Assembly: GCA_029718625.1 (NCBI GenBank)
Contig: CM056389.1
Coordinates: forward strand, 14,165,723 to 14,229,722
Direction: 5' to 3'
Length of the DNA stretch: 64,000 nucleotides
Source: Synaphobranchus kaupii
Taxonomy: Eukaryota > Chordata > Actinopteri > Anguilliformes > Synaphobranchidae
Of this stretch, positions 3,801-56,664 are shown piece by piece. The notes under the pieces were generated by a model. The model was given only the letters and a program-made list of their open reading frames with translations, did not search any database and was not told the DNA's origin. The translations under genes were made by a program, and so were the position numbers. Position 1 is the first letter of the stretch. Every line of letters begins with the position of its first letter.

Positions 3801-5867
3801 CTATGGAGAAGGACCGGCTCCTGTCTGCTTTAACAGTGTCAACAGGTTAAAGAGGAGAGAATTGCACAGGGATTTTAATTACTGGATAGGCGAGCTCTTC
3901 ATCTCAAGGGGGCTGATTTTATTGAAACAACACTGATTACAGCGCTGGTAAATATCTGCTAAGTGTCACGGGTCTGCACTTGAATTGCCCATGCCTCACT
4001 CAACCTTGAATTTTGTAACAGATGGATAGACAGACTAAAGGTGTCATCTCAGTTCAATCCCTGATTAAATGTAAATAAGGGAGCGCTTGTGTAAAAGTAC
4101 CCGAAAACAGAAAAGCCGCTGCTACATGATGAGAAACCAGACAAATTTGGGATGATTAACAAAAGGTTTTCTACAGCCTAATGTTTCGCATAACTTATAA
4201 CACTGATTTGACAGCAGTTGATTTAGGAGTCCTTATTTTTATGCAAATGCAGTTTTAAGAGAGTGCACAAAAGGTTCAATTCAGCCACCTCTTAGTATCT
4301 TGAGTGACAGATTCATCAGACTGTGTTACTCTAATTATGATACTACTCACAATATTGCCACTAAAGGTGTCTTAAGAAAATTTACTTTACCCAGTAAATG
4401 TAAAACTTTATCTCCCACAAATGTCATCCTTTATACACACATTTGTGGGAAATACTTCAGATAAATGTTGGCATGACTCAAATAGTTTGAAATATATGCA
4501 ATAAGCAGTTATGACTCAGAATGTACATGTAAAACCAAAGGGGGACAGTCGAAGGCCCTGTACACATTACAGCTAAATACGGTTGTCACTCCTCATATTA
4601 GTTCTTTAAAGGGTAACTACACTCTAGATCGCTTTTTTTTATTTTTAGCTGTAAACGTGTTTGTATGCCTACCTTTTAATGAAACTTATTGATCCATTCC
4701 GTTATTTCAACAATTCTGAAATAATAACATAAATCAGGAGAAACTGGTAGAAAAGCGTCTTTGTGCTGCCCCTAACGGTTGAAATTTCCTTTCTGCTGCC
4801 CGCTCTAGCCTCGCTCTAATGGTGATGTCTGAGTACCTATTTCTTCGTACTACTACGTCATATAGATAATTGTTGTCGCCCACAACGGAAACAGCCGGCA
4901 CCTGATTGGTTAGACCCGCTACGTTACTTTTGTTTCGGCTCCACATTTTTAAACCGGAACAACGTTGTGTCCTGTTCATAAACTCTCTTATTCCACCTAA
5001 GTAGTCCACTAAAATAGATATTTGAAGTGAGAAATAGGCCATGTGGTTGCTGAACCTTGATTCATATTTGATGTGCAACGTCTAGTTTGACAGTTTGATC
5101 CGAGTTATACGAAAATAATTTGTACAATCCTACGTTAATTTATGCAAATGACGATGGACACAGCTCCTCCGCCCCCACCCCTCTCCCTCGCTCACCCCAC
5201 AAAGTATTTCTCAAAAGGCCTAAGTGAGATTGCAAAACCATCAAGCAGTAATGGCATTTTTAAACCATGAGTACCTCTCATTCCTTAGAATGTCTTAGTA
5301 TCTTAGGTGAAGTCTCTATATGAATGTTCTGTTAAAACCCAAAACCATTATTAAAACCTTATTTCAATTTATTACAGTGCATGATATAAGTATACATCAC
5401 CAATTAGCATTATAACACTACTATGCCTTATACTCTATATATTATTAATATCAGATACTGCAGAAACACAGCATACAATAACTGATGCATTATAAAGTAT
5501 TTGATGCTGTGTTTATTGCACAAAAAAAAGATTCAGACATGATCAAACCACTTGGCGTGATTGACATTATGATCACAGATCCCCAACCATTTCATGCAAA
5601 GAAAGACCTAATTCAAGTTTAATTCAGTGGAATGAATGTGGAGCAATTCTCATATATTATTAATGAATGGTTTCAGAATTCCTGAGAGAGATGAAATATG
5701 CAGCATATTGATTGTCTGAAGGGCTTTGACAGCCACTGCAGGTAAAGAATGTTGACATGCTGAGTGTGCATCGCCCTGGGCGTGAGGGTAAAAATAACCA
5801 CTGTCACAGTCCTGTTCAGTAACTGAGAACTGGCACGGACACCTGGGGCTGTACAAACCTGCCACTC
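898..5867. other. Unique AT-rich non-coding DNA
   Basis: About 5 kb without a recognisable gene. Open frames are short and unconserved in appearance. The part from about 4600 to 5160 differs in texture (CpG-containing, with a start resembling transposon ends such as AAAGGGTAACTACACTC) and may be an old dispersed repeat, but I found no second copy here and cannot assign it. The remainder shows nothing I can name. Confidence 0.4.
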
Positions 5868-6310
5868 CTGGAGTGGACCAGCGCTCCTCCATCTGAACTC
5901 ACAGAGTGGACCAGCGCTCCTCCATCTGAACTCACAGAGTGGACCAGCGCTCCTCCATCTGAACTCACAGAGTGGACCAGCGCTCCTCCATCTGAACTCA
6001 CAGAGTGGACCAGCGCTCCTCCATCTGAACTCACAGAGTGGATCAGCGCTCCTCCATCTGAACTCACAGAGTGGACCAGCGCTCCTCCATCTGAACTCAC
6101 AGAGTGGATCAGCGCTCCTCCATCTGAACTCACAGAGTGGACCAGCGCTCCTCCATCTGAACTCACAGAGTGGACCAGCGCTCCTCCATCTGAACTCACA
6201 GAGTGGACCAGCGCTCCTCCATCTGAACTCACAGAGTGGACCAGCGCTCCTCCATCTGAACTCACAGAGTGGACCAGCGCTCCTCCATCTGAACTCACAG
6301 AGTGGACCAG
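5868..6310. repeat. 33-bp minisatellite, about 13 copies
   Basis: Head-to-tail copies of a 33-bp unit beginning GAGTGGACCAGCGCTCCTCC, almost identical; two units differ by a C-to-T (GGATCAG for GGACCAG). Because 33 is a multiple of three, the minus strand stays open for 160 codons (11-residue repeat SSDGGALVHSV). I see no gene context for that frame. The uniformity of the units points to recent expansion or homogenisation. Confidence 0.97.
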
Positions 6311-7828
6311 TGCTTGCTTTCAGCAGTTAAATTCTCACGCAAAGAGGAGACTCACAATTAACTTATTCAGTGCCGCGGGCGACTTTAGTCGACGAAAATG
6401 AAAATGATCTAAAGTGCCGATGGTGTCTATAGTCTATAGTCGACCACAACTTTACTCTTTACTCCATAAAGAATTCTGGATTTGAGCTGGGAAAAATGAA
6501 ACGATGACCAATTACGTTCTTTTACTGTCTTTTTTTTCCGATTTTTTTCGATACTGTCTTAATTTTTTCGATATTTATCCCATGTTTAAAAAAAATGTCT
6601 AACCATCTAAACCAACATCGGGGCGTGGGAATAATACATCCCCGTCAATTTGTACCAACATGTTTCTGCACCAGTGACCAAGAATATAAAGAAATTGAAC
6701 ACAATCAAGTGGACATTATAACAAACAAGGCTACTGCTATGCTACTGCCTCAGTAAGCCTAGCTTTCAGTCGTTCCACGATCATCTGGTAAAGTGTTTGA
6801 GTCACAGACAGTAGTCTACCATGAATGAGTTTTATAATATCCCTTTCCCAACTTATATTAAATAATTATCTCATTTCCACTGCTGTCCAGTTATTACCCA
6901 TATCTCCTCCAGTGACTATCGTTTTGTTGGTTCTGTTTTTAATTAGTCCCTCACACCACAGATTTTAGCCTATGTTATTTTTGCCTCAGGATAACTGTTT
7001 CTGTTTGAAATGGTTGATACAAATTAACTCACGTCGACAGCTCATTTGTACATATCTATACAAATGACCAGTGATTATGTTTATTGTTCATTTTTACATA
7101 TCTGTACTTTATGCAAGAGCTGATTTTTATGGAAAATTGTTTTCACTATTATTCCACATCACCAATTTAAGAGACATGCTAACCAAACTAAGAAGCACTG
7201 ACAATAAATTATTTATATTTCCATTAATATTGTTTGAAGTCGTTCTAATAGTGAACTGAACCAGAAGGTGTGCTATTTAGTGCCATCTATCCTCATTAAC
7301 AAAACATTATGTTGAATAGGTAAAATGTGTTTTATTAGAAGTTTGCACATTGACAGGATCAAGCAAAAAATTTTGAATGTAACATAACATAACACAAATA
7401 ACATAGAATGCAAGTGGAACACATATAATGCCCTGATCCGAGTGAAACGCAACAGGGCATTATAGCTGGACAAAAATGTTAGCGCCTAGCTATCGGTATT
7501 AGCAGGGCTGTGCATACCGTAATTTGCATAATGTCAGCTGAGTTTCGCTTTTGAAGTTTATTTCAAACAGAAAATGTGATGCTAAAATATTTGTGGAAGG
7601 ATTACATCCAGACCTTTATGTGTTTCAGAGTGACAGAGAGGGTTAATCAGTGTTACTGAAGGTTGATGTAGTATGAAACAGAATACATGACTTAAGCCTG
7701 CCTTGCATGTCTGTCACTAAACTGAGGCACGAGGGAAATGAAGTACTAGACTCTCTAACTCTATACAAGAGACCACATTGCCTGCTAAGTACTCCCACAT
7801 GTGATGGCAGGAAATGACATATACCCAC
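6311..7828. other. Unique AT-rich non-coding DNA
   Basis: No gene or repeat recognised. Composition is AT-rich with T-runs around 6530-6600. A 62-codon open frame at 7071-7259 has no recognisable motif and is probably chance. Confidence 0.4.
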
Positions 7829-14703: not shown

Positions 14704-15433
14704 TGAAAGGACCCCTTCAGCTCATCCAGAACGCAGCAGCCCGCCTGGTCTTCAACCTCCCCCGACACTCCCATGTCACCCCCCCTGCTCATTGACCTCC
14801 ACTGGCTACCTGTGATGGCTCGCATCAAATTCAAAACATTGGTGCTCGCCTTCCAGGCAGTCCGAGGATCAGCCCCTCCATACCTCCAAAAGCTCATCAG
14901 ACCCTACACACCTACCAGATCCCTGCGTTCCGCCTCCTCAGGACGACTGGTACCCCCCCCCACTTCATACTAGCACCCGGTCTCGACGTCTGTCTGTCCT
15001 GGCCCCACGGTGGTGGAATGAGCTCCCCGTGGAGGTCAGAACAACAGAAAGTCTGACCGCCTTCAAGCGCAGATTGAAGACTCACCTCTTTAAGCTGCAC
15101 CTCTCTCCACCCCTCCCTACCTCCTTGTGACCTCCCTTGATTGTGTTTTATAAATCCTTGTTTAAGTGTTTCAAGCTTCTAGTTTAGTACTTGTAAGGTT
15201 ACTTATTGGCTTACTGTTGTGCATGCCAATGATTGATATCGTGTGGTCCCCCCCCCCCCCCCCCCAAAAAAAATAAAAAAAAATAAATAAAAAATCATAC
15301 TGACTGCGCCTGTGTTTGAATTCGTATTTACCTTTTAGGGTGGTTTTAACGCACTTGTTTCAGGTTGGAAAATGCACTAATGTACGTCGCTCTGGATAAG
15401 AGCGTCTGCCAAATGTCTAAAATGTAAATGTAA
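14704..15433 (+). pseudogene. L2-clade LINE, 5'-truncated 3' end with reverse transcriptase C-terminus
   Basis: The plus strand reads LIQNAAARLVFNLPRHSH, then LIDLHWLPVMARIKFKTLVL and, after a frameshift in a C-run near 14953, RLSVLAPRWWNELPVEVR and TAFKRRLKTHLFKLHL. These are the hallmark C-terminal sequences of L2/CR1-type ORF2 proteins. An untranslated tail with a C19 run (15248-15266) follows, ending in CGCTCTGGATAAGAGCGTCT and short AATGT-type repeats. The N-terminal endonuclease and most of the reverse transcriptase are absent, so this is a dead, 5'-truncated retrotransposed copy. The tail matches that of the SINE at 49602-49830, so L2 is a plausible SINE mobiliser. Confidence 0.9.
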
Positions 15434-35326: not shown

Positions 35327-38198
35327 ACTGCTATAAATTTATAATGCTTTATTTTTTAAACATATGATTTAAACAATAAACAATTATGATTTAATTGACT
35401 CAATTTCCATTTGTATTATTATTGTTAGTCTGTTCTTATAACTCTATCATTCTATCGAAAAGTGATCATTGCCTCTTGCCTCATTACAGATATACTTGTG
35501 CTGCAATTCACTCAACATTTATCTTTGGCATAAATTAATACCTATGCCATATCAGTACATTACACTCCTATCCAGAGTACCATACTGTAGGGGAGAGCAT
35601 CAGTGTTACTCTCAGAGAATACAAAAATATGGTATCGCCCAGAAGGAATAGAGGCCAATGTGTAATCAATAAGTGTAATGTTAGCCTCACAAAACATTAT
35701 TTGTATTGCAACTAAAAAAAGAATACCGCTACAGAGGTAACCTATCTTTATACAGCTACACTTAGCGTCGTCCAAAAGAAAACTCAAAGAAAAACAGAAA
35801 GAAACCTCATATCTTAAGAAGTGCCACATCCCTGAGTGAAAACTAGGCAAAGAAGTATTCTCAAATGGTAATGAGTCGGATTACAATTTTACCACGTTTG
35901 CATTAACTAATTGAAAATGTACAAATTAATTAAATCCAAATCTTAGTACAAAGGAACAACCAATACTGTCTCAGACGGGTTATATGCTCTCTCAACACTT
36001 CAGTCATTTGATCCTTCATTAACAACTTCATTATAATTCTGGGTGGGGGAAAAAAAGTCACCTCACGCATTTGATTCATGTCCGCCCTGATGTGAGCTAA
36101 TTTTTTACAGCAGGTGCTATTGTGGATTTGCATTAGTGATGTGTATTAGCTGCCATACATTCATATTACAAAAGCTCATTATCAAGTTCTATTCATGACC
36201 AGAAAATGGCCACGAATCAGGAAAATCTGCCACGGCCTTGTGCATTTTCAGATAATGCCCTGATGAAACGTGGCTCTCTTTAAAGCACCTGGATCTGCAT
36301 TGTTTCTTCAGGCTTGTTTATTGAAGCCTTTTCTGTCATTCCCATTTGTGTCTGTCTCAGTCTCACTCGCTCTTAGTTTCTGAACGACCCGCTCCTCCTC
36401 CCCTTGCCCGCAACACCCTGCCCTAGAGGAGCATGCCTGTGCCCAGAGAACATTCTCCAGTCATGTGTTTCCACAGCACATGTTCTTTAAGAAATTCTGC
36501 TTTTGTCTAACTTTTCACTAGATGCGTCATGTAGTTAAAAAAAAATAAAAAAAAAAACCTTTATTTTTTTCCATAGCCCCACCTCCACCTTTCCATTCTC
36601 TTGTTATTTCCAACTGTAATCAACACTCCAATATACCCAATTTATCCAATTTTATTGGCACGCACATCAAGTCCGTAATCAGAGCGAATAATAGCCTATC
36701 CAGCCTTCTCTCAGTGGTTTGTCCAAATTACCCAGCATTATACCGTATTTGAGTCTTCCAGAAAAGAACAGTTATGTTATCGTTGATGAGGCTTGCTGCA
36801 AAATGGGGGAAAAAGCGGGGAATGGGGAATAAAACGCATTGTAAAAATACACGGTAAAATCGTTCAGAGAAAGCTCAAAGCGTACAGTGCTACACAGAGC
36901 TCTCGTTGAGCTCTGGGTCAGCAGCAATATCTAAGCATGTAACTGTGTTTCATTTATCATGGGCGGAAATACACAAATGCAAAACCTAAATTCAATCAAG
37001 GGAATAACCAAAAGTTCCTTTCGGTATCAAAGGCTGATAGAGACTGTACCCAAGTTAGAAGATACACAACGAAAGGACACAGCCCGCACAGTGACATACA
37101 GTATACCATTCAGGGACAATATGTTAAGGAACCGTACTACCCACAGTGGAAGTGAATGCCCAAGACTTTCAGTTGAACGCTAAGAGATGCACCCGAGACT
37201 AGAGCAGATTTTCTATTGCATAAGGAAGCCATGCACTAGGTGGCCTTTAGTTACTAATGGGACTTGTTTTTTCCATCATTATCCATTGAATCCAGTATAT
37301 TACCAACTAAGGCATCAGATTTTTTTAAACCTAAGTTTTAAAAAAAACATTTATGTCCTCATTTGCAGTGTTTCCCCACCAACATGCAATGACATTATAA
37401 AACACACTTCAAACAACGCTATTCTAAAACATGTTGGACATTTTAAGGCACTCATGAAAGACTATTGTGTAAAAAAAAACAAATAATGTTTCAAAGAGGA
37501 ATAAATATATAGAAGGAAATTGAACAGACAGATAAATTGAGGCTCAATGACCACAATGAATAAAATAAATGATTCTAAAGAGGTATTAAAATGAGGTTTT
37601 CACCAAGGAATGGTCTTTAGGGAACTTTGCACCCTAAGAACCTTGGATTAACAGGTGGTGCCTAACCCCTAGGTCCAATTTCTCTGGTGGGTGGCTCGAT
37701 AAAAAAGAGCTTTTAAACTGTTATTACACTCTGCTAGGCCACCTCCACTGGGGGTGCTACTTAAGAGCAGCTAATCACTGTGATACAAAGACTAGCCATC
37801 AGGCCCATGGGGCTAGCCTTGAGAGATGCCAGTGCTATTAGTTCAATCTATAGTCCACCAATTGTACAGGAGGGAAGGGATATACTGCGGCACCTCCCAT
37901 AGCATGCCACTGCGCAGGTAATGCAATGTACTGTACATTGAAGTACTGCCTTCAAAGTGCCAAATAACCTTCACATTAATGATCACAGCTGACATTCAAA
38001 TGGCACAAGTCACCGAAGTAGTGATTTACAGCTAATCAGTGTCAGTGTACAGTATAAGGTGGTTGTAGAAATGCCAGCCATTCCTGTAAAAAATAGCATT
38101 CTCATAAATAAAAAAAACAGGAAATATGAATGTAGCGATACAGTTCCTCAACTCTTTACCCTGCTGTGGTGTATTTAAATCATTAAGTAATAAATGCA
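35327..38198. other. Unique AT-rich non-coding DNA
   Basis: No gene recognised. The stretch 36175-36300 (AGTTCTATTCATGACCAGAA onward) is repeat-free and of even composition, a possible conserved element. Nothing nameable in the remainder. Confidence 0.4.
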
Positions 38199-38265
38199 CT
38201 GATGTACGTCGCTCTGGATAAGAGCGTCTGCCAAATGACTATAATGTAATGTAATGTAATGTAAG
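38199..38265 (+). mobile_element. Severely truncated L2 tail
   Basis: ATGCACTGATGTACGTCGCT, then CTGGATAAGAGCGTCTGCC and (AATGT)4 match the last part of the L2 copy at 15375-15433, differing at very few sites. Only about 67 bp were inserted or remain. Confidence 0.85.
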
Positions 38266-45592: not shown

Positions 45593-45707
45593 AAGTCCAT
45601 CCAATTGCAGGTGAGGAACCCAGTTGATCTCCCTTATAAAGGATCACAATTGGGGGGTGGTAAATTCAGAACTGATAGTCAGTGTTTATCTCTCCAGCCA
45701 AGCCCCT

Positions 45708-46324
45708 CCCCCTGAGTTTGCAGACTGCTCCAGTCCTGTCCCTCACCCTGAGTTTGCAGACTGCTCCAGTCCTGTCCCTCCCCCTGAGTTTGCAGACTGC
45801 TCCAGTCCTGTCCCTCGCCCTGAGTTTGCAGACACTCCAGTCCTGTCCCCTCCCCCTGAGTTTTGCAGACTGCTCCAGTCCTGTCCCTCACCCTGAGTTT
45901 GCAGACTGCTCCAGTCTGTCCCTCGCCCTGAGTTTGCAGACTTCTCCAGTCCTGTCCCTCGCCCTGAGTTTGCAGACTGCTCCAGTCCTGTCCCTCGCCC
46001 TGAGTTTGCAGACTGCTCCAGTCCTGTCCCTCGCCCTGAGTTTGCAGACTGCTCCAGTCCTGTCCCTCGCCCTGAGTTTGCAGACTGCTCCAGTCCTGTC
46101 CCTCGCCCTGAGTTTGCAGACTTCTCCAGTCCTGTCCCTCGCCCTGAGTTTGCAGACTGCTCCAGTCCTGTCCCTCCCCCTGAGTTTGCAGACTGCTCCA
46201 GTCCTGTCCCTCACCCTGAGTTTGCAGACTGCTCCAGTCCTGTCCCTCAGCCCCTGAGTTTTGCAGACTGCTCCAGTCCTGTCCCTCGCCCTGAGTTTGC
46301 AGACTGCTCCAGTCCTGTCCCTCC
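45708..46324. repeat. 36-bp minisatellite, about 17 copies
   Basis: Unit CCCTGAGTTTGCAGACTGCT + CCAGTCCTGTCCCTCG (36 bp). Variants: CTC[A/C/G]CCC, GACTTCTCC, and occasional one-base indels. It is open on both strands for long stretches (12-residue repeat GEGQDWSSLQTQ on minus). The variants are distributed in blocks, suggesting several rounds of amplification. Confidence 0.97.
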
Positions 46325-47791
46325 TCCTGGTTTATGCCCCCGCCTTGACGCAACCAGATTCCAAGATGCACCACCCCGCCCCTTTGAATTGAACATTTTT
46401 ACATCCTGTAATTGGACTTTTCTACTTACCAGCTAGTTTAATATCTCAGACTGTAACATGTTATTTGTAACAATTTTATTGATGAGAACATGCATAAATT
46501 GGAGGACTGAGCTACACTAATTGCTGTCCGCAGTTGTCCCTTGTAACATTTATTAAACTAAAATATGCACATTACAGAAACAAAGATTGAATTACCACTC
46601 AGTGCCATTGTATGCACCAGGAATCTTAACCACACAGTTTGTACTGAGTAGCCTGCAGTTACAACTTTGTGCACGAAAATAGCTGAAATGTTAAATAAAT
46701 GTGACTTTTATGTGATTATATGAACTGACATGTTTCAGCTAGATTGCTTTAATGTTTCTCACATGAGCAAGAGATTATGGACAACTGAAACTTTGTAACA
46801 GCTATGTGTGTCTTTTTTTGAGAGAACCCAGTCCCGACATTGATGGCAGAATGGATGAAAGAGAGTGAGACAGAAGGCGGTGCTTTCTGAGAGCTCTAAA
46901 TACCAGCCAATGAACATGCTTAACAAAATGCTAAAATAGCTACCCTACATTTCTGAACAAATTCAATCGCACTGAAAGCTGAGGGGTAGAGTTGCCATCT
47001 GAGATCTGCGACTAAATGAGTTATTACTTCAGAAGGCAAAGGCTGTTGAGTTTACAGGCTGAAGTTAGGCAGTACAATTAGCTGGATGGATCAAAGTGAA
47101 CATGCAGGCACAGACATGGGTGTATTCCATATTTATCTGTCCTCCCTTAATGTCAATATTTGTAATTCAATTACTGTCTTTTATTCAAAGCAAACAACCT
47201 GTGCCTTTGCCTGTAATATCTTTTTGAAGGCACTGCATCGCATCAGGTTATTTTTATCCAACCTCATCATCACTGATGTGTTGAAAGTTGATAAACTGCA
47301 TGTGGAGCAGATTCATTTTTAATTAGTCCCATGCAGTGTGGCATATAAGTGACTTCTGAAAGTCATCACTATGACCTAAAGAAAATGTGGCATTTTCACA
47401 ATTAGTTATTGCGATGACTGCAGTTGTTGGATGTGGCCATTGCTATGCAGGTGTTCTCTGGACCAATCAATTACAGCCTTATAACCACTCCAAAAAAAAC
47501 TTGGGGGTCATTTGGTTCCATGGCTATCTGCAATTCTGTAATTTGTGCCTTGAAAAAAGAAAATGATTAAAAAACAAGTTCATTCCATTTTATAACCAAT
47601 GTAGGACAACTGAACCACTGCAGTTAGGAGGTCTTCCAGCAACTTTTCTTGAGCACATGCTTGACATTAAAATATCAAGTGTGGAACAAGGTTTTTATTA
47701 AGATGCTAGTGCCAGACTGTCTCTATAAAGGTGCCCCTACTGGACACATAATTTCCATTAAATTTTGGAAATGCATATATAATTATATATA
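46325..47791. other. Unique AT-rich non-coding DNA
   Basis: No gene recognised, no repeat found. Confidence 0.4.
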
Positions 47792-49361: not shown

Positions 49362-49512
49362 GGGCCTGATTTACTAAGACCTTTAACATGTGCAAAACCT
49401 TTTAGCATATGCAAAACTAACAACACAACCAATGATTGGTGCAAAACAAATACCATGACCATGTTATGGTCATGTTATTGGTTTTGCGTGAGCTAAAAGG
49501 TTTTGCTCATGC
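49362..49512. mobile_element. MITE family C, right-truncated copy
   Basis: GGGCCTGATTTACTAAGACC, then ACCTTTTAGCATATGCAAAAC and, after the centre, TTGGTTTTGCGTGAGCTAAA. A perfect 8-bp hairpin ATGACCAT/ATGGTCAT marks the centre. The right terminus is missing where Harbinger sequence begins. Confidence 0.75.
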
Positions 49513-50690
49513 TAAGGGACGATGGCCAACTTAAGTCATGCGCTTAAGTGCCTTTCCTGCAGGGATTTAACGTGAGCTGACTTACGCCGTATTCTAACTT
49601 ACATTACATTACATTACAGGCATTTAGCAGACGCTCTTATCCAGAGCGACTTACACAACTTTTTTATTTTTATTATTAGATTTATCCATTCATACAGCTG
49701 GATATATACTGAAGCAAGTCAGGTTAAGTACCTTGCTTAAGGGTACAACGGCAGTGTCCTACCTGGGAATCGAACCTGCAACCTTTCGGTTACAAGCCCA
49801 GTTCCTTAACCGTTACACTACACTGCCGCCTAATTTGCCGCCCAACTTGTGTTGCGCAGGTGTGTGGGTGGCGCAGGGCATGATATTCTAATTACCTGTT
49901 TCTTGTACCTCCCCCCCCGGGGTTGCCAGGTATCTACTAAAAAATGTTTGTGGGGTTCTGCGTTTTCAACGTGTCAGTGACAGTGCCCTTTTATAACCGC
50001 ATTCGCGCATCGTAGTTGCTTTTGCGTGTCGGGGTATAGGCATGCAGTGAACGTATTAATACATCGCATCGATAAAATGATCATAGCTTCTATTGATGAC
50101 TGGGATATACCCATCACACAATCAAAAAAAATCGCTGGACAGTGGTTGCACGCAATATTACTAAGTAAACAAATAAATTGTTGGATTTACTTAAAAAAAG
50201 ACTTATAAATATATTTTTTTACGATTTAGCCTACCTAATAAAGTAATGTACAGTAACATAATAGCCTTGAGCGACGTCTTTCACTTAACCAGTTGAAGTC
50301 ACATATACTTAATAATAGCCCATTACTTGCAACCACTGTCCAAAGATTTATTTTTTGAGTGCATCTGTCACATGCTGGAAAGATATGGCCAGGAAGGAGA
50401 GATATTTTAACCTGGAGCACTGGTAGATCTACACTGCGGGGAGTTACTTTGCGCTTCTTAATAATTTTGGAGCAGCTGTGCTCACACAAGTAGGCTACAA
50501 AATTGTCTCTCTGTCAAAGCGATTATGATCCAAACACTGTCTGTCAATAAATTAATCTAATATCGGTCTGGTATTATATACCAGACAGTCAGTCATAGCC
50601 CACTTTTACATATTTTTCTTTTTATGACAGCTCTTTGATAATTGTAAGTAGGCTAGGCGAAGGAAAACAAAACCAACTGAGGATGTGGCT
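49513..50690 (-). pseudogene. PIF/Harbinger family 1 fragment
   Basis: Starts within the subterminal region (GATGGCCAACTTAAGTCATG) without its terminal repeat and is split by a SINE at 49602. GATGACTGGGATATACCCAT and the CCAGGAAGGAGAGA region match the 31.5-kb copy; minus-strand residues PVLQVKISLLPGH resemble its LQALSLSFLAPGSF. A perfect 9-bp hairpin GTCTGGTAT/ATACCAGAC is at 50565-50585. Right end lost after the TTTTTATGACAGCTC region. Confidence 0.8.
49602..49830 (-). mobile_element. tRNA-derived SINE, near full length, inserted in Harbinger
   Basis: On the minus strand: a tRNA-like head GGCGGCAGTGTAGTGTAACG with box A-like GTAACGGTTAAGG and box B-like GGTTCGATTCC, a body, and a tail GTCGCTCTGGATAAGAGCGT ending in (AATGT)n. 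The tail equals the L2 tail at 15391-15420 with one change. The 59.1-kb Harbinger copy reads straight through the site (ATTCTAACTTGTGTTGCG), giving a paralogous empty site. Not a functional tRNA gene. Confidence 0.9.
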
Positions 50691-50880
50691 TCTTTGTTAA
50701 CCTTTACCAAGTGGTTGAATAATTTTGGAGGGCTCTCTAGTTGAAACAACTTACAACAATACATTTTTTAAGGCTATGAAATCAAGGTGGGTTTCAAAAG
50801 GAAAAAAAAAACATATCCATCCCCTTAAATTTAGTTTGAAAATAACAAAAATAGCTGCATAATAAATATAAACATGCAGG
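50691..50880. other. Short unique spacer
   Basis: AT-rich, nothing recognised. Confidence 0.4.
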
Positions 50881-50932
50881 CCTAGTGACATGGTTTTTAA
50901 CCCTGTTTCCCTATGCGGTCGTTTTCCTTAAG

Positions 50933-50950
50933 TGGCCACGCGAGGGCGCT
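50933..50950 (+). promoter_or_regulatory. CTCF-like motif in LTR family 2
   Basis: TGGCCACGCGAGGGCGCT agrees with most positions of the vertebrate CTCF consensus. Binding is not shown by sequence alone. Confidence 0.4.
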
Positions 50951-51133
50951 GCCCTTTTAGTAGATGCTTGCTCCGCCCTGCTGGGCTTCTGTTAGCATTT
51001 ACACCTGTGCGTGGTCACTGAGAGCTACTTAAGCCTTCCGTTTCCTTCTATCGGGGCTTCGACATTAATTGTTCATTGTTTTGTACTGTGGTGCTTTTGT
51101 TGGTTGTGAGTTACTCGTACCATTTGGGCTACT

Positions 51134-52149
51134 CGCCTATTTTTAACGCCTCTTTATTGAGGCAGGGCTTATTTCTTGCTGGCTTGGTAGTTACTTATCT
51201 CGTAGAAGTTTGGGACTGTAAATCTCTGCTCTATTTTCGCCTTTTTTTGTGCTTTTTCTCCGTGTATGGAGATTTGGGCGATTATGTTCGGAACTGTAGT
51301 TCTGTTCGCCCTTTGGTGCATGTCGTCTCATGGGAGATCGGGCGTTTCGCTTCTGCTAGGTTGCTTAGCTTGTAGAAGTGTAGAGTAGCTGTTCTTTGTT
51401 CCCTTTCGCCTGTTATTGGTTTCTACTGAGAGTCCTGGCGTTTGCTTCTACTCATTTCCGTGTTACGGTGAGCCAGTGAGTAGCTTTGGTACGTTTATTC
51501 CCTGTTTTGTCTCCTTCTCATGGACTACGTCCCCCTTTGTTGTGAGTCGGGGTTTTTCGTTACATTTCCCCTTACTGAGAGGCAGGGCTTGTATTTGTGT
51601 TTGTGCTTGTGTTAGTCAGATAGCCGACAGTTTCGGTGCAGCTGTCCTTTCGTCTTTTGTGCTATTTCTCCGTGTATGGAGATTTGGGCGATTCTGTTCG
51701 GAACTGTAGTTCTGTTCGCCCTTCAGTGCAATTCGTCTCTTAGGGAGACCGGGCGATATTTTGGACATGTTTGCGTTTGACTGCAAGCCCCAATCTAAGC
51801 CGTGGAACATTAATTATCTGTTCCTGTTCGCCTCGTTGCATTTCTCCTTTCTTAGAGGCTTGGGCGTGGCTCTATTTTAAGCTTGGTCATTTTGCTGGTA
51901 AGGCTATGGGACTGCGGTTCTCCGTCGGCTCGCCTGTAAAATGTCTCTCCCCCCTGGGAGATCGGGCGTTTACCTCCTTTATGTTCTGCATGTGACTGTT
52001 GGCTTATGGAAGTAGCTACGGAACGTTATCTCTGTTCTTTCGCCCCCTCTGAAACAATTTTATCATTTTGCAATATTTGTTGACTGTATTTATTTGTGCC
52101 TTTACGCTACTCGCCCGTTCTTATTTTGTCTCGTTACCGAGACAGGGCG
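51134..52149 (+). repeat. Array of about nine nested stem-loop units
   Basis: Each unit reads CGCC(C), 15-20 nt, an inner stem, 1-4 nt, (G)GGCG. Inner stems: GCCTC/GAGGC (51148/51159), TCTCC/GGAGA (51257/51268), TCTC/GAGA (51326/51334), weak at 51407-51440, TCTCC/GGAGA (51667/51678), GTCTC/GAGAC (51735/51745), weak at 51829-51866, TCTCCC/GGGAGA (51946/51956), GTCTCG/CGAGAC (52128/52138). Outer pairs include CGCCC 51307/GGGCG 51340, 51717/51751 and 52112/52145. Spacing is 70-180 bp. Confidence 0.8.
51251..51760 (+). repeat. 410-bp offset internal duplication in LTR family 2
   Basis: GATTTGGGCGATT and GTTCGGAACTGTAGTTCTG with flanking hairpin units occur at 51251-51345 and again exactly 410 bp later. 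The two copies of about 95 bp are much more alike than the other hairpin units, so this is a later duplication. Confidence 0.85.
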
Positions 52150-52364
52150 CGTATTATTTCTGGCTGTTCAGATCCCTGTCCTTGCGCTCTACTTGGCGTT
52201 TGACAGTGAGCCGGTTAGTAGCGTCTGTAGTGGTGTTTGTTGTTCCTTGTCTTGTCTCCTTCCCTTATCTGCGGGGTTTCCCGCCTTAGTGGCCTAAGGG
52301 CTTAATGAATCCCCTTGCTGCGTTTGGCTCCTCCCACGTCACACGTCACGCCCCATTACACCTA

Positions 52365-54313
52365 GGGCCCTATCTTGGCGATCTTGGCGCTTAGTCTAAG
52401 CGCATGGCGCTAAGTCCATTTAGGGCGTGTCCAAGTCCACTTTTGCTATTTTAACGGCGTGTTTTTTTGGCGCTAAGCACGGCGCATGGCGCAACTGGGC
52501 TAAACCTAGTCGCTTCATTAATTATAGGTGTGTCTTGGGCGTGACATTCAATAAACCAATCAAAATGTCATATCCCATTCCCTTTAAAAGCCTGCTTTTC
52601 CACCTTGGCGGATTGCTTATAATGGCGAAACAGACATGCTCGTGCGTGTTTAGTGTGATCAAGGAATAGGCTAAATGGAGTATGATCAATATTATTCGGA
52701 CTAACCATTAGCCTATGAGTTCCCGGTAATTCCAGACAGGGCTGTTATTTTACAAAATATGTGCGGTTAAATTTCGTTAAAAGGACCTGCAACAGCTGAG
52801 AATAAGCTATCAATGGCTTCAGTCTCACCTTAGAAAACGCCAAATTAGCCTGCTTGTTCAGCGAATTTCGTTTGATTATGCAATGAAAGTGTCAAACATC
52901 AATTCCATGAGGCTGTTCTCATGGAGTTCTCGAAGTTCAAGCTTCATCCAAAGTTCATTAGGCTACCTGCATAGTAGGCTAATATTGATTAATAACATAC
53001 ATACCGTTATTTTGCCTTAATGATGACACTAAATAGCCATACAATAAAGCTGTCAGGTTCGCAACCCATAAGTTCACGCATATTTCCCCTTGTTTAATAA
53101 TGTCCTGTTTATGGAAATGTGACCAACCTGTTTTACTCGTAGCGTAATCCTTTAAAACAATCCACTTTCCCAGGAAGACCGTTAAACGTGCAGAGAATGG
53201 CATTAAAATGAATTGTGTAACGTGCTGCAAATTTGTTTTAGTTTCTAATTAGACGCTTAGTTCTCTTTAAAATCGTTTTGTTCAGTTAAGGAATAACGGG
53301 TGAAATCAGCTGGGTTTTAAACGGTGAGAGTATGGAAACCTGGTCACTGTCATTTAAAAAAATATGAAGGACGAAGAATAGCTAAGGTTACAATTTAGTT
53401 AACATGGTGACATCTCCGTTTTTTAACCATAGGCTATCGAAAAAAACCTTATGCACAGCGAATTCGCTGTAGCCTAGGCTATTTGAAAAACAATAAATGC
53501 AATATTCACTGGACAAGGTTTTGAACTTTTTTCAGTCACAAACCATTCTATTTACTTACAGGCTGTATTCATAGATAAACAGAGCTGTATTGTAATGACA
53601 TCTGAAGCGCATTTTCAGAACTTAAATGTCCGTCTATTGCCGTGCGCGAGTTTTCCATTGAATGACAATTCACGCATTAGGTGCAAAGACAATTCGCGCA
53701 TTAGGCTTGATAGCTATAGGTGTTATCAGCTCCTTTTTAATGGATAGCCATTGTCCCGTACCATCGCACATCGCCTGGATGTTGATGGAGTGGGCTGAGA
53801 GCAATGTAATGTGGCATTGTTTCCCTTCGCTGAGGGAAAGGTATGTGGACCTATGGAACCTTTTATTATTATGCATTTTTGATATAGCCTACATAATAAT
53901 AATATTTCACATTGTGATCTAGATATTTTAGTCATGCCTGTGCACGCCCCTGTGTGTAACAGACAGGAGGGTATGCGCGTTGTGCACACGCCTATGTAGA
54001 CGCACTTATATGCGCCGTTAAAATAGCATGTAAACAACTGCGACATGACTTTAGACCAGGTTTGTGGTGGTTCTAGCGCAAGCGCTTTCTGCTGGCTCAA
54101 GATAGCAATACGCCAAAAAGAATCCTGGCCACTCCTCATCTTAAGACCAACACGCCCAGTTCACTAATGATGGCGCAAGAGTTACGCCGTCAAACATGCT
54201 AGTTTGACGGCATAAGCGTTAGGCGTTATTATGGACCTAGCGCCGGGTGTAAGATAGCAAAGACACTTGCGTTTGCGTTAGCGCCGCTTTGCGCCGGGTG
54301 TAAGATAGGGCCC
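52365..54313 (-). pseudogene. PIF/Harbinger-like element (family 2), 1.95 kb
   Basis: GGGCCCTATCTT and AAGATAGGGCCC are perfect inverted ends, flanked by CTA (52362, 54314). Subterminal CGCCGGGTGTAAGATAG occurs twice at the right (54242, 54292), and GGCGCTAA/GCGCATGGCGC words recur at the left. On the minus strand around 53760-53810 HSINIQAMCDGTGQWLSI resembles the HSINxQAxCD catalytic block of HARBI1-type transposases, followed out of frame by RDNGYPLK, like the GDSGYP motif. Many frameshifts; inactive. Family assignment rests on those short motifs and the 3-bp duplication. Confidence 0.65.
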
Positions 54314-54316
54314 CTA

Positions 54317-56039
54317 GTGTCAAGAACAGGTCTGAGAGGCACTATTTAAAACCCACACGTTTTCATTCCATCACCTTTATGCAGTTTGTTTAGGAGTTGA
54401 AATTTGCCAAGGCAAAAGAGCCATTGAATTGTCTTCATATACTGTAAATTGCCTCTGTAGCGGGGTCAAGTGCCTTCTGGAGAATATGATGGAACTTTCA
54501 TGAAAAGGGTGTTTTTGTGATGTGTGAATGTTGAGTGTGGAGGGTTGGGGGTTGGGGGGAGGGTGGGGGGGGGGGGGGGGGGGACTCTGAAACCTTCATC
54601 ATCGAGTGGATAAAAACATGCATTTCAGAACTGTTGGATATTCAGCCACAACACCATCATCCATATGAATATTTCCACCTCCAGCTATGCATACTTGAAG
54701 AATAAAAGAAAAAGAAAAAAACAGCTTTTTATATAATTTTCTTTTTATACTCTTTTTTCAAACTTTGACTGTCCAATCATATTTAACTCCCGTTCAATCA
54801 CTGCAGTTCTAACTGTCAGTCAGGGAGATAGCAGACTTTAAAATGCGGAGAGTAAAAATGCAATAAACAATTTTCAATTGTACAGAAACACTCTAGAAGT
54901 CGCAGCAAGTCATTTTGGGTTACAAACTAAAAAAGCATTGGAAGTTAGTTCAAGCTAAAAAAAACAATTTTAAATTCTAGCCCAAACTTTTCTGGAAAGA
55001 GAAGTAATTTCTATATTGGACAAATATTAGTAAGCACATATGTACAAATATACATTTTATACTTTTGCGATGATAAACATGAACTTCAAGCAGTTCGACA
55101 AATTGAGACAAGGCTTTTAATTTGACTGTTGTTCTCCGCTATTGAAACTCATCCAGTCATCATGCGGCAATGAAAATGGCACCCTGATTTCACACCACAT
55201 GTTCTTCCTATAGCTACAGGCCAAAATATTGTACTATTGTGACGTTCCAGCCTGGGCAACCAGACGGCTTCCACTAATTCAGAATGCCACCTGCCAAATG
55301 CCACCATCTGCAGGCTTAACATGCCAGTGTATTCACATGTTCTTCTTCTTCCAGCCACAGCCTCTCAATTTCAATCACCTACTGATGATAGTCCACCTGG
55401 CAGTCATGGACATGATTCTGTCCAATCTTAAATCTGTTAACGCCACTGTGTACCCCTACAAGTGCTTCTCCACTCTAGAGCCTTTGCTAGTTCTGGCAGC
55501 TTCTCCACTCTGTTGCAATGGATCCCAAAATGCCCCAAATGCTCGGTTCCCAGTCCGCAGACTATCCTCATACTTAGGCTGACCAGACATCTTCTTTTTC
55601 CCCAGACACTTTCTTCTGTTTTGTGACCGGGAACATCCGTCCAGGCGAGATTTCTAAATTCCTAAAAAGTTTCCTGTTAGGTTTTGCTCATTTCATAGAC
55701 CGTATAATACAGTAAGCAAACAAATGGCCTAGTAGTATGTTCATAATGCCCACACTTGTCCTCATTTACATGGTCATGCTCTATGCTTAGCACCCAGTAT
55801 CTACTCTCAGTAAACCGTGTGACATCTTATCTTTCTGTATGAAGTAGGCAGAATTAATACTTAAGTGCCTTGCAGGATATTGTTGCACTTGTAAGACATC
55901 AATATGTTTCCTGTGCTTGTCATTACTGCTAGTAAACACAATAATTGAAACCGCTGGGAAAATGAAGGACAATAATCCTAAGCAAAGTAGAGGCTACCAC
56001 ACATGTGACTCAGCCAATAATGAAGGAAACCTCATGCAC
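54317..56039. other. Unique non-coding DNA
   Basis: G19 at 54565-54583. A 117-codon plus frame at 55229-55582 includes WATRRLPLIQNATC, faintly like L2 reverse transcriptase, but not enough to call. Nothing else recognised. Confidence 0.4.
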
Positions 56040-56155
56040 AGGGTCATGTATACAAACGCTGGACACACCTGGTTGTCTATAATTATGGCTGGTATGGCTT
56101 CAAGAGGAGACCTCCATGACTTTTAAAGAGGAAATGGGTCATTAATCGTCTGTCA
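56040..56155 (+). pseudogene. Tc1-like transposase N-terminal fragment
   Basis: After TGGTTGTCTATAATTATGGC the plus strand reads MASRGDLHDF, a stop (TAA), then RGNGSLIV, like the start of Tc1-type transposases (M-A-x-R-G-D-L-x-D-F-x-R-G). The stop kills the frame, and the minisatellite follows. A more decayed relative may lie at 19285-19340. Confidence 0.5.
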
Positions 56156-56204
56156 CTTTTGACAGACATTTCAGTGGTCAAGAGAGCTGAACATAAGGCA
56201 ATGC

Positions 56205-56664
56205 CAGTATGGAACTCTGAGGGATTTCAGGATGGAACTCTGAGGGATTTGTCAGTATGGAACTCTGAGGGATTTCAGGATGGAACTCTGAGGGATTTGT
56301 CAGTATGGAACTGTGAGGGATTTCACGATGGAACTCTGAGGGATTTGTCAGTATGGAACTCTGAGGGATTTCAGGATGGAACTCTGAGGGATTTGTCAGT
56401 ATGGAACTGTGAGGGATTTCAGGATGGAATTCTGAGGGATTTGTCATTATAGAACTCTGAGGGATTTCAGGATGGAACTCTGAGGGATTTGTCAGTATGG
56501 AACTCTGAGGGATTTCAGGATGGAACTCTGAGGGATTTGTCAGTATGGAACTCTGAGGGATTTCAGGATGGAACTCTGAGGGATTTGTCAGTATGGAACT
56601 CTGAGGGATTTCAGGATGGAATTCTGAAGGATTTGTCAGTATGGAACTCTGAGGGATTTCTCAG
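56205..56664. repeat. 48-bp minisatellite made of alternating 23- and 25-bp halves
   Basis: Half-unit ATGGAACTCTGAGGGATTTC + AGG alternates with ATGGAACTCTGAGGGATTTG + TCAGT. About 9.5 copies of the 48-bp pair. Open in frame on plus (16-residue repeat VWNSEGFQDGTLRDLS), broken once by TATAG at 56449. Variants GAACTGTGAGG and GGAATTCTGAGG recur. Confidence 0.96.

Follow-up and report, generated by a model that had tools for sequence, protein, structure and literature searches.

A solo LTR carrying an array of hairpin-like units in Synaphobranchus kaupii and its relation to an apparently gene-less, putatively self-primed retrotransposon family

The analysed window, a 64,000-nt stretch of the Synaphobranchus kaupii genome, contains on its + strand a 1475-bp solo LTR (50886-52360), which starts with TG, ends with CA and is flanked on both sides by the 5-bp target-site duplication CCTAG (50881-50885 and 52361-52365). 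These termini and duplications confirmed the original prediction of a long solo LTR at this position, and the direct repeats, TG..CA ends and 5-bp target duplications were likewise found in the copies fetched by a genome search. The LTR and its flanks (49383-55785) form a segmental duplication, the second copy of which (L136) lies 23.6 kb away on the same contig and is also accompanied by CCTAG. The LTRs of the two copies are 99.7% identical and both flanks are about 98-99% identical; since the LTR and the flanks are common to both, L136 does not represent a second insertion. Only in the window copy is the LTR separated from the right flank, by approximately 1.95 kb (52366-54312); this is probably another insertion beside the LTR that postdates the duplication. 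The LTR contains a 117-aa reading frame, for which a protein search gave nine candidates, none of them at E ≤10, and a coding role for this frame was dropped. At the Rfam gathering score there was no match inside the LTR; three UnaL2 LINE 3' tails were found elsewhere in the window (15369-15422 and 38191-38244 on the + strand, 49614-49667 on the - strand). Minisatellite-like tracts that are open in several frames were present at 5816-6319, 45679-46398 and 56120-56660.

The hairpin array extends over 51134-52149 (+ strand), within the putative transcribed leader, and was delineated by a strict-definition count, folding and a sequence HMM. The predicted unit layout and coordinates were confirmed, with all units in one orientation: CGCC(C/T), a spacer of 9-14 nt, the inner stem, 1-3 nt and GGGCG. 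Unit U0 (51134-51169), in which outer pair 1 is unpaired, was assigned by the strict definition and hand alignment, U1 (51238-51280) and U2 (51307-51344) by the strict definition and folding, U3 (51407-51440), with a weak inner stem, by folding and hand alignment, and the degenerate U4 (51558-51588) by the sequence HMM. Self-comparison identified U5 (51651-51690) and U6 (51717-51755) as duplicates of U1 and U2, supported by folding and by the strict definition, respectively. The remaining units were U7 (51829-51866; strict definition), U8 (51931-51968; strict definition and class counts), whose class shows A-U, G-C or G-U at outer pair 2, and U9 (52112-52149; strict definition, folding and hand alignment), which is the most stable unit. 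Segments 51245-51334 and 51655-51744, covering U1-U2 and U5-U6, are 91% identical and 410 bp apart, and the units are therefore not independent of each other. According to the hand alignment, most units share an outer CGCC/GGGCG and an inner TCTC/GAGA core.

The strict CGCC-spacer-stem-GGGCG definition, which was written only once the sequence had been seen, recovered seven units in the LTR, all of them on the + strand, in comparison to a mean of 0.025 (maximum 1) in 1000 dinucleotide shuffles of the array. In the remainder of the window it gave no unit on the + strand and one on the - strand. A definition without fixed letters identified five units (0 on the - strand) versus 0.27 in 300 shuffles (maximum 2). 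The predicted number of about nine units was reproduced by the sequence HMM; the retrained version of the HMM, like the strict definition, reduced it to seven. In the host genome (1.5 Gb, 94 contigs) the exact hairpin pattern occurred at 511+559 places on the two strands and a control pattern at 0+0. A sequence-only model applied to the LTR copies provided 562 usable units (out of 566) and none on the opposite strand, with 2 to 11 units per copy in the 84 distinct copies. The hairpins are thus real and conserved in the LTR copies read.

The final 16 LTR bases, with up to one mismatch, were found at 2039+1978 places of the genome (about 4,000), the reversed control giving 13+9; in a separate search with the LTR, 40 of 7754 candidates were scored and eight loci returned. 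After 26 places without a recognisable LTR start had been left out, 85 complete copies (84 distinct) of 1341-2227 bp were retained. Exact 5-bp target duplications flank 70 of these 85 copies, so most of the copies read are solo LTRs. The search for full-length elements, also proposed by the original prediction, was successful: three fetched loci consist of an LTR, a middle of 592-617 bp and a second LTR. The LTR pairs of these three copies were identical over 1904 of 1904 positions, free of mismatches over 2168 compared positions and different at 15 of 1899 positions, respectively. Neither of the two middles checked contains a long reading frame, the longest sense stop-to-stop frames being 74 aa (L144) and 124 aa (L143), in different frames. 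When the genome was searched with the 617-bp middle, 39 of the 40 scored candidates (from a total of 460) matched all 617 positions and one matched positions 1-614, with identities of 88-100%. The LTR/middle junctions were present at 267+292 places (control, 2+0). We take these elements for a non-autonomous family with recent activity; the retrotransposon seems to be gene-less and to prime its own copying. Tandem arrays of whole elements are suggested at three places (G000 C2:97241646-97251622, C4:68173178-68177175 and C4:86941749-86949413), where successive junctions are 2-2.7 kb apart. No conserved AATAAA was present in the LTR (it occurs in 10 of 84 copies); roughly 35 of the 84 carry AATGAA or AATGATT some 55 nt ahead of the LTR end. 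Searches outside the host gave 0, 15 and 0 places for three LTR patterns in IMG/VR and 0 and at least 119 places for two patterns in GTDB genomes. The best LTR match among the fetched IMG/VR and GTDB loci covered only 23 bases at E 0.1; these matches, mostly in GC-rich bacteria, were therefore taken as chance, and copies of the LTR in these two collections were rejected.

A TATA-like box (TATAAG or TTTAAG) begins 24-27 nt upstream of GGGG in 72 of the 84 distinct copies. The window copy is among the 12 exceptions and has CTTAAG at this position (51028-51033, + strand). Further upstream, in the U3 region of the LTR, lies a putative CTCF-like motif (50933-50951, + strand), represented by an 18-mer that recurs with up to two mismatches in 69 of the 84 distinct copies. 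The middle of the full-length copies begins with GAATGTCGAAGCC and, as judged by eye, has no TGG at its start, unlike primer sites of the tRNA type. Instead, the first 12 bases of the middle show complementarity to an LTR site located 25-27 bases past the start of the TATA-like box; in the window, the reverse complement of GAATGTCGAAGCC, minus its last base, is found at 51055-51066 (+ strand). This segment would constitute the RNA 5' end and the self-primer, its complement being the primer-binding site in full-length copies. Based on the self-priming layout, we infer that the RNA starts near 51053, at the GGGGCUUC site, which would place the array within the transcribed leader. The earlier placement of the array downstream of the promoter and within the transcript was in this way supported by the position of the TATA-like box and by the primer/site complementarity, given this probable start.

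Natural variation at the primer site provided what amounts to a covariation experiment. Among the 100 listed junctions (out of 559), the primer-site triplets were GTC, ATC, CTC, ATA, GTA, TTC and GTT; L143 has a different triplet at both the primer and the primer site, and L180 a third. The sample consisted of 29 of the listed junctions and four other copies, and for the junction copies the expected place of the primer was read from the 3' LTR. In 12 of the 33 copies examined, no primer could be read at the expected place. In the 21 readable copies, the variable triplet of the primer was exactly complementary to that of the site in 18, over four variants, the other three having a one-base mismatch. 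Among the 20 copies picked by primer-site variant the primer was readable in 12 and the triplet exact in 11; in nine further copies these numbers were 5 and 3, and the triplet was exact in all of L143, L144, L145 and L180. A permutation test on 16 copies gave 15 exact matches versus a mean of 5.3, a value reached in 0 of 200,000 permutations, though this figure is optimistic since the copies are related by descent.

The features that copies with the CTC-type primer site demonstrably share with the family are limited to the last seven bases of the LTR and the frame of the primer site, and in none of six such copies was an LTR present at the expected place. Three of them (L256-L258) contain a near-identical frame, in one case interrupted by a stop, which by its appearance we take to be Gag-like; L254 resembles this frame across 62 bases. 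In L255, a 79-aa integrase piece matched the Ty3 Gag-Pol (4.6e-16), with Pfam rve below the cut-off, and in L259 neither Gag-like nor integrase sequence was recognised. A Pfam search with two of the Gag-like pieces returned no Gag match. In the genome, the 241 Gag-like bases were matched at a rounded 100% by thirteen of the 40 candidates scored (from 761). The CTC copies with Gag-like or Ty3-like integrase sequence are likely to be the partners of the hairpin element, which itself lacks Ty3/gypsy integrase and reverse transcriptase. LTRs with the GAG primer triplet, the complement of CTC, account for 3 of the 84 copies and contain 6, 8 and 9 hairpin units, so the coding relatives may also carry the array. 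At G000 C4:85718144-85721745, two TTC-type junctions lie 2.7 kb apart, each followed by a Gag-like piece; because there is little room for pol within 2.7 kb, this pair is possibly a Gag-only relative.

In Tf1 and Tj1, the RNA 5' end serves as the primer (PMC4600332), and a hairpin at the 5' end is used for priming by several chromoviruses (PMC3601003). The present family resembles the Tf1/sushi group (Tf1, Tf2, Tj1 and vertebrate sushi elements) in that its primer-binding site is complementary to the putative RNA 5' end, in 18 of the 21 readable copies, and in that a coding relative contains a Ty3-like integrase piece. Members of this group are further characterised by a Ty3/gypsy reverse transcriptase and integrase and by a primer that RNase H cleaves from the folded RNA 5' end. 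Vertebrate Tf1/sushi elements are reportedly the subject of Butler 2001. In contrast to this group, the copies studied here are without a long frame and have 1.2-2 kb with repeated hairpins between the primer and its site; the portions of PMC4600332 and PMC3601003 that were consulted name no hairpin array for Tf1/sushi elements. TRIM elements (Cassandra, Helenus and Ajax) consist of a short middle between two LTRs, encode no proteins and depend on a partner, as stated in the accessible parts of PMC10886601 and PMC6934838. The hairpin element is similar to them in its two LTRs around a gene-less middle of 592-617 bp and differs in its promoter, which looks like a Pol II promoter rather than that of a small-RNA gene, and in the size of its LTRs (1341-2227 bp). 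The LTRs of TRIMs are miniature, of a few hundred bp. LARDs are non-autonomous and have long LTRs, as does the present family, but their non-coding middle is long, in contrast to about 600 bp here. Taken together, the sequence at 50886-52360 very probably belongs, as a solo LTR, to a self-primed and non-autonomous retrotransposon of the Ty3/gypsy type, similar to Tf1/sushi and present in high copy number.

Long R regions whose conservation is tied to stem-loops are described in the consulted part of PMC3601003. The leader is similar to the long R regions of gammaretroviruses, spumaviruses and lentiviruses in having stem-loops in a conserved leader, and differs from them in being a degenerate repeated array that varies in its number of units and belongs to a gene-less element. 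Examples of self-priming, of non-autonomous LTR elements and of stem-loops in leaders are individually already known, and the family itself may well be already catalogued. A comparable hairpin array in a self-primed element was not found in the titles and opening lines of abstracts of a mostly open-access literature. Within a single genome, where LTR copies number in the thousands and there are indications of recent activity, the system brings together an element without genes, the coding relatives that are probably its partners and a long leader with hairpins.

The original prediction held that both arms of the inner stems change together and that structure, not sequence, was selected. In the hand alignment, a paired two-sided change was observed only at inner pair 2 of U0, and the different inner arms listed in support turned out to be largely one TCTC/GAGA core in shifted registers. 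The cores are kept as sequence. In home-made, phylogeny-aware tests modelled on R-scape, which have low power, no stem pair covaried significantly, either among 271 pooled units or among the genomic copies of two LTR pieces (60 and 55 copies, kept from 66 and 65 by length). As the prediction had made its case depend on significant covariation, its covariation claim was not established. The proposed comparison of the fold with shuffled sequence was uninformative: z was -3.9 for the array on the + strand and -4.3 for the complementary strand, and values of -3 or lower were also reached by 8 of the 41 other 1-kb segments in the window. The fold energy is thus not special to the array, and whole-array fold energy was dropped as evidence.

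Evidence at the level of unit classes, where classes with fewer than 15 or 20 members were left out of the counts, was mixed. In the LTR-copy units, 4611 of 5085 stem cells were in standard pairs. At outer pair 2 of the U8 class, the pairs were A-U (44), G-C (41), G-U (10) and A-C (1), i.e., 95 of 96 standard versus 76.3 expected, a value reached in 0 of 2000 permutations; this is a real two-sided change. In another class, inner pair 2 (U-G 54, C-G 15, U-A 8) was standard in 77 of 77 units, yet with a permutation p of 0.17, and none of the three other variable pairs was significantly beyond expectation, so that four of the five variable pairs in the within-class test did not exceed it. Some stem positions pair poorly: inner pair 1 was standard in only 2 of 150 units of one class, and inner pair 4 of one class, with U-A in 72 and C-A in 70 units, is often unpaired. 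One-sided stem changes led to G-U in 27 and to A-C in 15 cases, in comparison to 38 and 42 for the same substitutions in the spacers (p = 0.057), and the ratio did not differ between shared (14:7) and rare (13:6) variants. The two-sided change in the U8 class and the uniformly standard inner pair 2 speak for covarying inner stems as proof of selected structure; in view of the mostly invariant inner cores, the lack of a significant pair in the phylogeny-aware tests, the three other variable pairs and the equal ratios of shared and rare variants, we consider this reading highly improbable. Across unit classes, the column counts showed most stem columns to be far more conserved than spacer and loop columns, the exceptions being outer 5 and inner 1-2. 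Both arms are conserved as sequence and therefore pair. RNA structure is a possible but unproven target of selection at the hairpins, and the data point only weakly to their RNA shape as what is selected.

The same observations bear on two serious rivals of cis-acting RNA hairpins. The hairpins could be a by-product of mutation, in which an ancestral quasi-palindrome was duplicated and its arms were matched by template switching, with no RNA function selected. According to Monttinen and Loytynoja (PMC8794818), hairpins can arise and persist through template switching. Duplication of units in blocks (the 91% identical duplicate at 410 bp), the range of 2 to 11 units per copy and the lack of covariation beyond phylogeny would be in line with such an origin. 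Swapping arms between unit classes cost 0.7 kcal/mol on the + strand (p = 0.07) and 1.2 kcal/mol on the - strand (p = 0.008), and for the nine window units alone the p values were 0.11 and 0.0003; the arm match is thus stronger in Watson-Crick terms than with G-U, in favour of this explanation. The much stronger conservation of most stem columns (except outer 5 and inner 1-2) in comparison to spacers and loops, together with the preference of one-sided stem changes for G-U over A-C (27:15 versus 38:42), argues against it and makes it somewhat unlikely.

Alternatively, the array could act as DNA within the transcribed part, its units being repeated inverted binding sites through which a host protein would exert an enhancer, silencer or insulator effect, as at the repeated sites of the Drosophila gypsy element. 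The CGCC/GGGCG and TCTC/GAGA cores kept as sequence beside variable loops, the presumed CTCF-like motif in U3 of 69 of the 84 copies and the equal fold signals on the two strands (mean unit z of -1.42 on the + and -1.34 on the - strand in 200 units) are consistent with DNA sites. In the window the half-sites are, however, unequally spaced, the 5' gap measuring 9-14 nt and the 3' gap 1-3 nt, which fits a bulged RNA hairpin better than a symmetric DNA site, and the whole array lies downstream of the putative RNA start. A DNA function appears unlikely to us on these grounds.

For the hairpins themselves, we infer a function as cis-acting RNA elements, a tentative proposal to which we give less than an even chance: their local folding would spare the primer/site duplex, and they may serve as repeated handles for Gag. 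In the account that we favour with some reserve, a self-primed element with a cis-acting hairpin leader, the RNA would start near 51053 and its first bases would fold back to prime DNA synthesis beside the 5' LTR, with the proteins supplied by the coding relatives. The array would form a transcribed leader of 1.2-2 kb between primer and primer site, composed of degenerate hairpin units whose number varies by copy. Conserved in sequence and pairing, the units would fold locally and leave the primer/primer-site duplex unmasked, and they may act as repeated handles for the Gag of the partner. The system thereby bears on how self-primed elements join their distant ends and on which RNA signal gets a gene-less element copied.

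In the minimum-energy folds of four leaders, the primer and its site were paired by 11-12 pairs across 1.7-2 kb; in shuffled leaders this pairing was observed in 20 of 48 folds. The analysis was extended to 36 LTR leaders, from 46 eligible copies, each joined to the same natural internal start; primer and site paired in 29 of these 36, in comparison to 34 of 108 shuffled leaders (p = 3e-7). When ordinary genomic segments, excluding those with long CA/TG runs, replaced the leader, primer and site paired in 52 of 72 cases versus 29 of 36 (p = 0.24). Compaction is therefore not special to the array, as genomic DNA allows pairing almost as often, and the array as an end-bridging device, which beats shuffles and not genomic DNA, was dropped. 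In the predicted folds, the array leaves the primer/site duplex unblocked, no better than ordinary DNA does. The full-leader ensemble indicated that several outer stems hardly form, with probabilities of 0 to 0.86.

A more far-reaching version, which we regard as distinctly unlikely, would make the LTR of the gene-less element a modular RNA domain whose hairpins compete for the Gag and reverse transcriptase of the relatives and keep the distant primer in reach. The number of hairpins would then drift by duplication with sequence and pairing kept, and the primer would lie nearly 2 kb from its site. Partner and parasite may share the handle, since the CTC-fitting LTRs (3 of 84 copies) also carry the array. 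The strongest-folding 120 nt of the LTR + strand were located at 50921-51040 (z -4.86, in comparison to -2.35 on the - strand), in U3, upstream of the putative RNA start and outside the array.
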